From: Desulfomicrobium baculatum DSM 4028
GTDB lineage: Bacteria > Desulfobacterota > Desulfovibrionia > Desulfovibrionales > Desulfomicrobiaceae
Direction of reading: 5' to 3'
Assembly: GCF_000023225.1 (NCBI RefSeq)
Contig: NC_013173.1
Coordinates: 1,986,501 to 2,050,500, forward strand
Length of the DNA stretch: 64,000 bases
Shown: piece after piece, positions 42,563 through 45,658 of the stretch
Layout: every line of letters begins with the position of its first letter
Numbering within the stretch: the stretch's first letter is position 1
The notes under the pieces: generated by a model
Databases searched by the model: none
Told to the model about the DNA's origin: nothing
Seen by the model: the letters and a program-made list of their open reading frames with translations, nothing else
Translations under genes and position numbers: made by a program

Positions 42563-43623
42563 CGCACGTTCACCTGCGTCCCGTCCTCGACCTCGGCGTG
42601 CCCGGCCACGATAAGCCTGTCACCGGCGGCCAGTCCTTCCAGCACCTGCACGCGGTCGCCTTCGATGATGCCGAGCTTTACGGTGCGCGCCCGGGCCACT
42701 CCGCCCTGCTCCACGAAAATGATCCGCTCCCCGCCCTTGTCCTGCACGGTGAAGAGCGGCGCGGTCACGGCACCCTCAATCAGACGACGCAGAAATGCGC
42801 CCCGCGCGATCATGCCGGGCCGGATCATACCGCCCTCATTGTCCACCACCACCCTGACCTGAAAGGTACGGGTCGCGGAGTCGGCCTTCCAGGCCACGAA
42901 ATCAATCGTCCCTGTCCACCGCCCCTCGGGATAGGTGTCGACAAGCACCGTGACCTCTTGCCCTTTGGCCAGGAAACGCACGTCGCCTTCAGGCACGGAA
43001 AAGTTGATGCGCATGGTGGCCACATTGACGATATCCGCCACAGGCCCACCCTCGGCCACGAATTCTCCGGGATCGACATGGACCTTGTTGACCACGCCTT
43101 CCAGGGTCGAGGCCACCGTGCCGTACTCGTATTCAACCTCGGTCTCGCGCAGCCGCGTCCTGGCCGAAGTCAGCTCGTTGCGGGCCTGATCCAGCTCCTC
43201 CCGGGCAAGAACGCCCTGCGCATGAAGCGCTTGCCTGCGCCGCAGCTGATCGTCGGCCAACTGCACGTTCGCCCGCGCGCGATCACGGGCGGCGCCCAAG
43301 GCCGACAGGTCGATGCGGGCGACATGATCTCCCGTGCGCACGGCGCTCCCTTCGGTCACGCCGACCCACTCCACGACGCCGCCGCGCTGAGCGGCCAGGC
43401 GCACATCATGCAGGGCCTCGGTCTCCCCAGGCAGGACCAGAATGTCGCGCATGGTGACGGCCTTGACCTCCTCGGTCAGGACATTGACCACGTAAGCCGG
43501 CCTGGCCGGTTCCGAGGCATTGGAAACCGGAGAATCCGCCGGCCCATCGGAGCACCCGGCAGAAAAAACGCCCAGACAAAGGACAAGACCCAAAAACAGA
43601 TTCTTTCCCCAAACCATATTCAT
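42559..43623 (-). CDS. RND efflux periplasmic adaptor lipoprotein
   Basis: A 354-aa membrane-fusion protein with a lipoprotein signal peptide ending in the lipobox FSAGC (about residues 20-24). The barrel-sandwich half-motifs are DVRLAAQRGGVVEWVGVTEGSAV and TLEGVVNKVHVDPGEFV, flanking a coiled-coil hairpin rich in Arg/Gln/Glu (about 110-160). It bridges the RND pump and an outer-membrane channel. AAGGA precedes the ATG. It leads the two-gene operon; repeats lie upstream. Confidence 0.92.
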   Translation of the reverse strand: MNMVWGKNLFLGLVLCLGVFSAGCSDGPADSPVSNASEPARPAYVVNVLTEEVKAVTMRDILVLPGETEALHDVRLAAQRGGVVEWVGVTEGSAVRTGDHVARIDLSALGAARDRARANVQLADDQLRRRQALHAQGVLAREELDQARNELTSARTRLRETEVEYEYGTVASTLEGVVNKVHVDPGEFVAEGGPVADIVNVATMRINFSVPEGDVRFLAKGQEVTVLVDTYPEGRWTGTIDFVAWKADSATRTFQVRVVVDNEGGMIRPGMIARGAFLRRLIEGAVTAPLFTVQDKGGERIIFVEQGGVARARTVKLGIIEGDRVQVLEGLAAGDRLIVAGHAEVEDGTQVNVR

Positions 43624-43633
43624 TAGCTGTATT

Positions 43634-43709
43634 CCTTAAACCGCCCACGGTCCTGAAGGTAAGGGGCTGGAAAGGTTCAAGTGCAAGGCGCTAGGCCAAA
43701 ATCTTCCCC
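43634..43709. repeat. repeat unit 1 (truncated copy, left arm only)
   Basis: Shares the left part of the next two units: a CCGCCCACGGTCCT-type lead, GGTAAGGGGCTGG, AAGGTTC, AGTGCAAGGCGC and GGCCAAAAT. It stops there without the central hairpin and runs straight into the next unit. It looks like a deletion derivative. It lies just upstream of the RND adaptor start. Confidence 0.8.
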
Positions 43710-43885
43710 TTAAAACCGACCACGGTCCTCACGGTAAGGGGCTGGGAAGGTCCGAGTGCAAGGCGCAAGGCCAAAATGCAAGCCGAAGTGTAGCCGACTA
43801 CATGAGGCTTGCATTTTGGCCGCAGCAACGCAGCAATCGCACCATTCGCACAGATTCATACGCAACCCGAACCAAAATCTCTTCC
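43710..43885. repeat. repeat unit 2, palindromic core
   Basis: A full unit with a perfect 16-bp stem, GGCCAAAATGCAAGCC at 43769-43784 with its complement at 43806-43821. The 21-nt centre (43785-43805) holds TGTAG-CCGA-CTACA. The right flank keeps CGCAGCAATCG but diverges further out. The outer arms are only partly complementary in this copy. Confidence 0.85.
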
Positions 43886-44035
43886 TTAAAACCGCCCACG
43901 GTCCTGGAGGTAAGGGGCTGGGAAGGTTCGAGTGCAAGGAGCGCGAGAAAAAACGGAGCCGAAGTGTAGCCGACTACATGAGGCTCCGTTTTTTCTCGCG
44001 GCGACGCAGCAATCGGACCTTCCCAGCCCCTTACC
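43886..44035. repeat. repeat unit 3, long palindrome overlapping the end of manC
   Basis: Outer 23-nt arms (43909-43931 with 44013-44035) match with one difference. The inner perfect 19-bp stem is 43942-43960 with 43982-44000 (CGCGAGAAAAAACGGAGCC and complement). The centre (43961-43981) is the same 21 nt as in unit 2, while the stem arms differ in sequence. The right arm contains the manC stop codon (44031-44033). Confidence 0.88.
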
Positions 44036-45440
44036 GGCCGTAGAGATCTTCGAAGCGGACGATATCATCTTCTCCGAGGTAGCTTCCAACCTGCACTTCA
44101 ATAAGCTCCAGCGGAATCTTGCCCGGATTGGCCAGACGGTGCACTGCGCCGAGCGGCAGGTAGACGGATTCGTTCTCGCGCAGCAGGATTTCCTCGCTGT
44201 CCCGGGTCACCACCGCGGTGCCCTGGACCACGACCCAGTGCTCGGCGCGGTGGAAATGCTTCTGCAGCGACAAAACCTGACCCGACGTGACCACGATGCG
44301 TTTGACCTGATAGCGCGCGCCGTCGCCTATGGACTCGTAGTGGCCCCAGGGCCGGAAGACCTTTTTATGAGACACGGCCTCGATGCGGTTCTCGGCTTTA
44401 AGCTTGTCCACGATCTTCTTGACTTCCTGCACCCGGTCGCGCGGGGAGATGAGCACCGCGTCGGAGGTCTCGACCACGATGTGGTTCTCAAGTCCCACGG
44501 CGGCCAAAAGGCGCGTCTCGGCGTGCAGATAGGAATCGTGAACGTCGCAGAGCACCACGTCCCCTTTGGTCACGTTGCCACTCTCGTCCTTGCCTCCGGC
44601 CTGCCACAGGGCGTCCCAGGAGCCCAGGTCGTTCCAGCCGCAGGACAGGGGGACCATCACGCCCCGTTCCGTCTGCTCCATGACCGCGTAATCGACGGAG
44701 TCCTCGGGACAGGCGGCAAAGGCCTCACGGTCCAGCCGCAGAAAGTCCAGATCCCGCCCGGCCAGGGCCAGGGCCTTGCGGCAGGACTCCACGATGGCCG
44801 GTGCGAATCGTTCCAGTTCGGACAGCACGGCCTGCGCCCTGAACACGAACATGCCCGAGTTCCAGAAATATTGCCCCGAGGCGACATAGCCCTCGGCCGT
44901 CGCCAGGTCCGGCTTTTCCACGAAACGCTCGATGGCACGGGCCGCCGAGTCCGGAAGCGCCGGTCCTTGCAGGATATAGCCGTACCCGGTCTCGGGAGCC
45001 GAAGGAACGATGCCGAAGGTGACCAGGTGATCCGCGGCGGCATGCGCGACGGCCTGACGCACTGCCTCGTGAAACTGCGCCGGATCACCGATGAGATGGT
45101 CCGCCGGCAGGACGAGGAGAACCGCCTCGGGGTCGGCGACCAAGGCCTGCAGAGCCGCGATAGTCACGGCCGGAGCAGTGTTTCTGCCGACGGGCTCCAG
45201 AATGATCGCGGCCGGGGACACGCCCATGGCCCGCATCTGCTCGGCGATGATAAAACGGTGCTCTTCGTTGCAGATGATGATCGGGTCCGCAACCTCGTCC
45301 AGGCCTTGCAAGCGCAAAAGCGTGTTCTGGACCAGGGTCCGGTCGTCGATGAGCGGCAGCAGCTGCTTGGGGTACAGTTTCCGCGAAAGAGGCCACAATC
45401 TGGTGCCGGACCCCCCGGCAAGAATGACTGGAATGATCAT
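44031..45440 (-). CDS. manC: mannose-1-phosphate guanylyltransferase / mannose-6-phosphate isomerase
   Basis: A bifunctional type II enzyme feeding GDP-mannose to glycan synthesis. It is 469 aa. The nucleotidyltransferase part opens VILAGGSGTRLWPLSRKLYPKQ (5-26), with ERFVEKP further on. The C-terminal cupin (about 350-469) with KHFHRAEHWVVVQGTA is the isomerase. GGAG lies before ATG 45440. The stop lies inside palindromic repeat unit 3, so the mRNA 3' end would fold into a long stem. Supplies the glycosyltransferases seen elsewhere in the window. Confidence 0.95.
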   Translation of the reverse strand: MIIPVILAGGSGTRLWPLSRKLYPKQLLPLIDDRTLVQNTLLRLQGLDEVADPIIICNEEHRFIIAEQMRAMGVSPAAIILEPVGRNTAPAVTIAALQALVADPEAVLLVLPADHLIGDPAQFHEAVRQAVAHAAADHLVTFGIVPSAPETGYGYILQGPALPDSAARAIERFVEKPDLATAEGYVASGQYFWNSGMFVFRAQAVLSELERFAPAIVESCRKALALAGRDLDFLRLDREAFAACPEDSVDYAVMEQTERGVMVPLSCGWNDLGSWDALWQAGGKDESGNVTKGDVVLCDVHDSYLHAETRLLAAVGLENHIVVETSDAVLISPRDRVQEVKKIVDKLKAENRIEAVSHKKVFRPWGHYESIGDGARYQVKRIVVTSGQVLSLQKHFHRAEHWVVVQGTAVVTRDSEEILLRENESVYLPLGAVHRLANPGKIPLELIEVQVGSYLGEDDIVRFEDLYGR

Positions 45441-45658
45441 GTTCTGCTCCAAAAAATAAAGAAATAAGGACATGCGTGCCAAAACCCGGCTTATGTACCG
45501 TGGATGATGACAAAATCAAATGGCAATTTCGCGGCCCTGGGCACGTGGGGCGGGCCATGCGCTTCCCGCCGGTCCCGGCCCGGCAAGGGGTCTGGATTTG
45601 TGAATGCCTTTGCCGTACAGGGAGGGTTAACGCCAACCGCGGCACATAAAGAGGCAGG

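Follow-up and report, generated by a model that had tools for sequence, protein, structure and literature searches.

Stop-codon-associated hairpin palindromes beside manC of Desulfomicrobium baculatum are probably old copies of a non-autonomous, MITE-like mobile element

REP sequences are palindromes of 20-40 bp that carry a GTAG or CGTC tag at one end (PMC3733652), and for those E. coli REPs that lie within 15 nt of stop codons a role in protecting the mRNA 3' end or in modulating translation termination has been proposed (PMC12306157). Longer palindromic repeats, of 100-170 bp, include the ERIC, YPAL, RUP and Rickettsia palindromic elements, and the RNA effect of ERIC depends on orientation (reviewed in PMC2229807). 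Insertion sequences of the IS5 type duplicate a 4-bp target, YTAR (PMC10359306). Also similar to the sequences reported here are the 'predicted short RNA elements' of Geobacter metallireducens, which are multicopy and intergenic, have the central palindrome GRCGTAGCGCTGCTACGCC, and were reported also in G. sulfurreducens, G. uraniireducens and Desulfotalea (PMC2700814); multicopy sequences appear as well in the papers on G. bemidjiensis and Pelobacter carbinolicus. Among the literature matches listed, there was no account of stop-codon-targeted palindromes of the present kind, or of this family as a mobile element, in these bacteria.

We analyzed three palindromic units beside manC in a 64,000-nt stretch (the window), which corresponds to positions 1986501-2050500 of the one-contig, 3.94-Mb genome of Desulfomicrobium baculatum (G000 in our numbering); their features are collected in Table 1. 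A sequence-only reading had noted the 21-nt centre common to units 2 and 3 and the different inner arms around it, and both observations were borne out, since the 16-nt arms of unit 2 and the 19-nt arms of unit 3 are each 100% complementary. The same reading described every unit as a nested palindrome, which holds for unit 3, where the 27-nt outer arms match at 93%, but not for unit 2, whose right outer arm is degraded and whose left outer arm pairs well only with the right arm of unit 3 (inverted repeat I1). It placed the repeats at 43710-44035, a range that takes in units 2 and 3 and leaves out the truncated unit 1, and its account lacked the manC stop codon at the end of the right outer arm of unit 3. 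The predicted RNA folds are stable, at -103 kcal/mol for unit 3 (z = -15.3 versus shuffles) and -64 kcal/mol for unit 2 (z = -5.4), and the centre pattern GTGTAG-N4-CTACA has four matches in the window with at most one mismatch (two sites, both strands), compared with 0.17 in shuffles.

Table 1. Features of the units beside manC, with the RAYT-like genes of the same genome. Positions are those of the window unless a G000 coordinate is given.
Feature	Position	Strand	Basis or remark
Unit 1, a truncated copy that retains just the left outer arm and the first conserved box	43638..43702	+	direct repeat family D2
Unit 2 core	43755..43836	+	R2 covariance-model match, 86.9 bits
Unit 2 core box GCAAGGCGC	43758-43766		inner stem and 21-nt centre lie between this box and the next
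Unit 2 core box GCAACGCAG	43825-43833
Unit 2 inner left arm, 16 nt	43769..43784	+	inverted repeat I5
Unit 2 centre, 21 nt, GAAGTGTAGCCGACTACATGA	43785..43805	+	identical to unit 3 centre
Unit 2 inner right arm, 16 nt	43806..43821	+	inverted repeat I5
Unit 3 left outer arm	43909..43935	+	inverted repeat I2
Unit 3 core	43931..44012	+	R2 covariance-model match, 73 bits
Unit 3 box variant GCAAGGAGC	43934-43942
Unit 3 inner left arm, 19 nt	43942..43960	+	inverted repeat I4
Unit 3 centre, 21 nt	43961..43981	+	same as unit 2 centre
Unit 3 inner right arm, 19 nt	43982..44000	+	inverted repeat I4
Unit 3 box variant GCGACGCAG	44001-44009
Unit 3 right outer arm	44009..44035	+	inverted repeat I2; spans manC stop codon (TTA 44031-44033)
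Abutting gene ManC (mannose-1-phosphate guanylyltransferase / mannose-6-phosphate isomerase)	44031..45482	-	Pfam NTP_transferase and MannoseP_isomer
Left-hand neighbour gene, HlyD-type membrane-fusion protein		- (like manC)	Pfam
RAYT-like Y1 transposase gene, locus L004	G000:1116095		PF01797
RAYT-like Y1 transposase gene, locus L005	G000:2924149		PF01797

To describe the family, we searched for the centre and for the folded core. Of the 61 genomes searched (D. baculatum included), 11 have the exact centre pattern, all of them in the same genus, and none has the reversed pattern. A covariance model built from 48 cores (R1) found 8 copies in the D. baculatum genome and copies in 11 of 16 Desulfomicrobium genomes; the further copies have complementary arms, so that neither outcome named beforehand as refuting the sequence-only reading, a centre confined to this place or copies with unpaired arms, occurred. 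Rescanning 99 fetched loci gave 124 matches, or 121 after removal of three in which the palindrome was read backwards, and 114 of these have full flanks, the remaining 7 being excluded from position counts. With a broader model built from 41 sequences (R2, scored without a decoy model), matches were found in 98 of 395 phylum genomes, 82 of 328 good genomes and 68 of 246 genera. R2 finds at least 9 copies in the D. baculatum genome, and its copy numbers are lower bounds because at most 11 candidates were scored per genome. Outside the phylum, the gammaproteobacterium Vibrio salinus has three near-identical copies (L069, L076, L083) with the same boxes and centre and a shorter inner stem; their common sequence extends ~50 nt further left and >100 nt further right. 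The form found in G422, a genome of the same order as D. baculatum, matches none of 72,556 plasmid records, and the window form none of 50,697 phage records; an exact-pattern scan of IMG/VR yielded one contig with a copy (L355). Four related loci in two genomes (L126, L133, L134 and L136; G318 and G357) are bounded by long inverted sequences that match almost perfectly, AATCCACCGGC...GCCGGTGGATT; none has a convincing stop codon beside it, and they perhaps represent a separate MITE-like lineage.

The phylum-wide copies include one (L122) with the sequence GGCGTAGCAGCGCTACG, which agrees in 17 of 19 letters with the reverse complement of the Geobacter palindrome. Because this centre is so near the Geobacter palindrome on the other strand, part of the family was probably seen before; the available text of the published account (PMC2700814) assigns it no function, and does not deal with movement, duplicated targets, the location at stop codons or the two strands. 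The ERIC, YPAL, RUP and Rickettsia elements are palindromic repeats of comparable length, a likeness by description only, and the available text of the review (PMC2229807) does not mention that any of them insert precisely at stop codons.

The conserved core is ~82 nt long. In each unit the outer arms enclose the boxes GCAAGGCGC on the left and GCAACGCAG on the right, the inner stem lies between these boxes, and within that stem GAA precedes and (T)GAG follows the centre stem-loop. The boxes (GCAAGGCGC / GCAACGCAG; GAA / GA) are not fully complementary, yet they are among the most conserved letters. The stems behave differently: within the genus 96.6% of their cells are paired, and double-sided change affects 124 cells, whereas shuffles give 25.4 and slid structures no more than 45. 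The wider phylum set has 161 double-changed cells (50.6 in shuffles, at most 103 in slid structures), with double-sided change in three of the four modelled centre pairs, and the GTAG of the centre is replaced elsewhere in the phylum by GTAC, ATAC and others. The differing arms of units 2 and 3 had been read as compensatory change that preserves the hairpin; the covariation agrees with this in that pairing persists while letters change, but a strand test is needed as well, because correction by template switching could likewise restore the arms.

Two unusual arrangements were seen among the copies. One unit (L062:1492-1573) is a hybrid, with a left arm of one type and a right arm of another, which probably arose by recombination between tandem units at the common centre. 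In one genus copy (L172:1551-1631 / L233; G015:C123:16750-16830), the centre GAAGTGCAGCCGTCAACATGA is inverted relative to the boxes, and the model matches both strands.

To locate the copies relative to genes, we measured the distance from the end of the core to the nearest stop codon, taking as the gene the longest open frame, not the annotation, of at least 80 codons (60 for the first phylum hits, 100 for G422). For 87 of the 114 genus copies, an open frame on the opposite strand has its stop 8-28 nt beyond the right-hand end of the core, and mirroring the test to the left yields 10 of 114; this control uses the same 8-28 nt and undercounts if left arms are longer, as they are in G422, but adding the 20 further left stops found at 43-69 nt in the genus leaves the total still far below 87. 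The 27 genus copies without an adjacent stop include, by eye, inner units of tandem arrays. Widening the distance to 5-36 nt gives 89 copies with a stop, distributed over 34 gene clusters. Outside the genus, 28 of 80 phylum copies have an adjacent stop compared with 1 of 80 mirrored, where the 80 are the best hits of ~40 genomes, near-identical and G422 copies included, and not a random draw; for the first phylum hits the numbers are 5 of 20 and 1 of 20 (8-28 nt).

The genes at which the copies end have little in common. Of 19 scanned, 17 have Pfam matches, which are unrelated and without a common theme (they include ManC, HypD, Usp, cytidylate kinase, ABC ATPase, NifH, UmuC-like, MetW, CorA and FBPase), and the orientation of the left-hand gene, by rough calls, is mixed. 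There are also gene clusters in which the outer arm contains the stop and extends into coding sequence, and in which the far arm is changed to match (L163, L167 and L179 versus L173). At genus TAG stops the flank on the stop side, the only side seen, reads CTAR in 37 of 39 copies (17 gene clusters, not all independent), whereas Y precedes TAG in 69 of 189 control TAG stops without an element (P = 3e-12), and three of the six TAA stops read TTAC. TGA accounts for 36 of the 87 stops, and its complement TCA falls outside YTAR; 13 of these 36 stops lie within the outer arm and the others at the arm end.

Evidence for mobility comes from two sources. The first is a comparison, by eye, of orthologous gene ends with and without the element at three genes. 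At the end of manC, a full copy is present in 5 of 16 genomes (G000, G010, G002, G001, G013), a decayed one in two (G014, G007) and none in eight, with one genome (G003) cut at a contig end. For a LivF-like gene, 11 close orthologues comprise 5 filled, 3 decayed and 3 empty sites, and for a Usp-family gene 14 orthologues comprise 7 filled and 6 empty sites and one in which the core was lost but the outer arms were kept. These comparisons show that copies are scattered among unrelated genes and that sister species differ in whether a given gene has one. At the manC ends that lack the element in G008, G009 and G015 (L218, L221, L219), unrelated-looking inverted repeats stand directly after the stop, for example GGGTCCTATAGGTCC...GGACC, and manC gene ends may be a hairpin hot spot.

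The second source is a burst of young copies in G422, where the left terminus has 37 matches and the reversed pattern none. Most copies are 150-151 bp long, with imperfect terminal inverted repeats GGAAGCACTGATT / AAATCAGCGTTTCC. For the analysis of flanks we dropped four copies whose right end was not recognised (L324, L346, L349, L353) and one without a left end (L270), and removed L264 as a duplicate of L338, which left 29 copies. The flanking 4-mers are identical in 14 of the 29, compared with 3.5 expected from shuffles and a maximum of 11 in 20,000; YTAR flanks stand on the left in 17 and on the right in 20, while only 0.27% of nearby positions are YTAR. At the right end, 18 copies have a stop codon no more than 1 nt away; at the left end, 4 do (one copy has both; P = 0.004), and 21 of the 29 have a stop codon in one or both flanks. 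By eye, the excluded copy L324 has CTAA on both sides. The target may be looser than YTAR, as L339 has an exact TTCA duplication. Two copies (L342, L350) have lost the core and kept the arms and YTAR or YTAR-like flanks. Another (L335, G422:C1:28500 +/- 1500) carries its core in the opposite orientation to its outer arms and flanks, as recombination between the arms might have produced.

The terminal repeats and flanking duplications of G422 fit the suggestion, made from the window alone, of a mobile palindromic unit of MITE type. The likeness is to IS5-group elements and IS5-derived MITEs, with which the G422 copies share the 4-bp YTAR duplication, the short length and the terminal inverted repeats. 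The present family differs from these in its long, conserved, asymmetric hairpin core, its strand-specific structure, its orientation bias at stop codons and the many TGA stops in the genus, and in that no autonomous IS5 partner was found. A search for PF01609 transposases gave none in D. baculatum and one, with an internal stop, in the draft genome of G422; across this search and that for PF01797 in D. baculatum, no autonomous partner was found.

To determine which strand is kept folded, we used the fact that a G.T pair on the strand that reads GTGTAG is an A.C mismatch on the other strand. Counted as combinations of gene cluster and stem position, genus sites show G.T and A.C in a ratio of 55:5, or ~10:1 (strand-neutral filter; 77 of 121 copies usable), and the ratio ranges from 67:12 to 52:4 across filters. 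Comparison of orthologous copies on the GTGTAG strand gave 41 single changes between Watson-Crick and G.T, 1 between Watson-Crick and A.C and 37 others, together with 128 Watson-Crick and 15 other double changes; these counts are pairwise and thus not independent. Of 73 usable genus copies, 71 have G.T as the first centre pair (with a filter that counts G.T as paired), as do 37 of 41 phylum-wide rows. The young G422 copies (28 in this set, one of them L335 with its inverted core) lack the strand asymmetry, with 35 G.T versus 27 A.C (P = 0.37), and their stem changes comprise 88 one-sided changes that give G.T, A.C or another non-Watson-Crick combination, 12 one-sided changes that give a Watson-Crick pair, 5 double Watson-Crick changes and 5 other double changes. 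The contrast between 55:5 in the genus and 35:27 in G422 indicates that old copies retain the fold of one strand while young copies drift. Mutational strand bias is a less likely cause of the asymmetry, as the + strand of the G422 stems has 19 C-to-T and 21 G-to-A changes, although G422 belongs to a different genus.

How far could copying of one arm onto the other by template switching during replication, which would produce complementarity without selection, account for these palindromes? Paralogues that differ over entire arms (units 2 and 3; the manC cluster) and the hybrid L062 unit point to recombination or copying, and the mostly one-sided stem changes of the young G422 copies also count in favour of this account. 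But such correction would wipe out the non-complementary boxes, which are instead strongly conserved, and it is strand-neutral, whereas the genus ratio is not. Neutral correction is therefore very unlikely to be the explanation, although the hybrid arms and the wholly different arms of paralogues suggest that copying between units also happens.

The strand asymmetry also bears on function. The favoured strand is antisense to the abutting gene, and the keeping of its fold argues against protection of that gene's mRNA end and, as the whole story, against strand-neutral correction. A hairpin adopted by the host to protect the abutting mRNA 3' end, or to modulate translation termination, would agree with the location at stop codons, the stable folds, the persistence at orthologous genes in several species and the precedent proposed for REPs (PMC12306157, as far as its available text goes). 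However, the mRNA-sense strand has A.C where the other has G.U, so that the mRNA fold is not the preserved one; the abutting genes have no common theme; and no U-tract follows the outer stem of unit 3. RNA 3'-end protection, which had been put forward from the sequence, is accordingly disfavoured, and we regard a host-adopted 3' element as quite unlikely. A terminator scan of 43600-44100 gave two short hits, both inside stems (1.0 expected), with none after the outer stem and no U-tract behind unit 3, and an intrinsic terminator was rejected on the lack of a U-run.

The same asymmetry could instead reflect a structured regulatory RNA made from the GTGTAG strand and mobile only incidentally. 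The G.U-specific pairing and the fixed GA-rich loops on that strand are consistent with this, as is the naming of the Geobacter relatives, in the available text, as predicted short RNA elements (PMC2700814). Against it, both flanking genes in the window are on the opposite strand, a scan of the + strand from 43600 to unit 3 found no sigma-70-like promoter, left-hand gene orientation is mixed, and an Rfam scan of 43300-44400 returned no family at the gathering score. A regulatory RNA is thus an unlikely origin of the family. Membership of a known Rfam RNA family was rejected, the best score being 25.1 bits against a gathering score of 82.

A strand-specific fold with asymmetric internal loops could also be the substrate of a Y1/HUH transposase, which would move the folded single strand of DNA as in REP-RAYT or IS200/IS605-like systems. 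The D. baculatum genome encodes two PF01797 proteins, and one of them lies ~3.1 kb from a copy. This is the only copy within the 15 kb and 12 kb surveyed around the two genes; 7 of the 8 copies in the genome are far from a PF01797 gene, and none lies within ~5 kb of the second one. The GTAG motif is inconstant, and G422 shows 4-nt flanking duplications and terminal inverted repeats, which are not known to be features of the Y1/HUH mechanism. We judge mobility of this kind improbable. REP/BIME sequences with their RAYT proteins resemble the present family in being dispersed palindromes, some of them near stop codons, and Desulfomicrobium copies have GTAG in the centre; here, however, the core is 82 nt and the whole ~150 bp, not 20-40 bp, and GTAG is variable and central, not at the stem foot. 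The REP/RAYT assignment that had been considered from the sequence was rejected because of the ~82-nt core, the variability of GTAG across the phylum and the inconsistent RAYT link in D. baculatum, where 1 of 8 copies is within 5 kb of a RAYT-like gene.

Together, these observations lead us to conclude that the units beside manC are probably old copies of a non-autonomous, MITE-like mobile palindrome, inserted at YTAR-like sites by IS5-type target choice. The ~82-nt core would lie between outer arms serving as terminal inverted repeats, and, to judge from the duplications and inverted ends, insertion would be performed by a DDE transposase with IS5-group-like target choice. Copies would pile up at gene ends because YTAR sites are scarce in the neighbouring sequence and because insertions within genes are presumably lost. 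In long-lived copies the GTGTAG strand, which is the one antisense to the abutting gene, appears to be kept able to fold; arm letters would be free to change provided that the arms pair, and the fixed, non-complementary boxes may form a recognition surface for the mobilising machinery or for another partner, which would read the single strand as RNA or DNA.

DDE transposition alone explains neither the selection on one strand nor the preferred orientation, which in G422 is 18 to the right and 4 to the left. Both features suggest that some partner recognises the strand in its folded form, be it DNA or RNA. A doubtful but possible extension is that the family, old and spread through the phylum and a Vibrio, has the stop codon itself as its target, with the folded strand read by a putative partner and this combined with a DDE-like duplication.

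If the units are indeed copies of a MITE-like mobile palindrome, then the delta-proteobacterial 'multicopy' and 'short RNA' sequences, previously unexplained in the available text of the papers cited, become a defined mobile element, one whose ends, target and orientation can be measured, and hairpins on stop codons are accounted for without regulation. The strand test, which compares G.T with A.C in the stems of old and young copies, is a simple and general tool for distinguishing selection on a folded strand from self-correction of a palindrome, and the core model provides a handle for the search for the mobiliser in the 98 matching phylum genomes.
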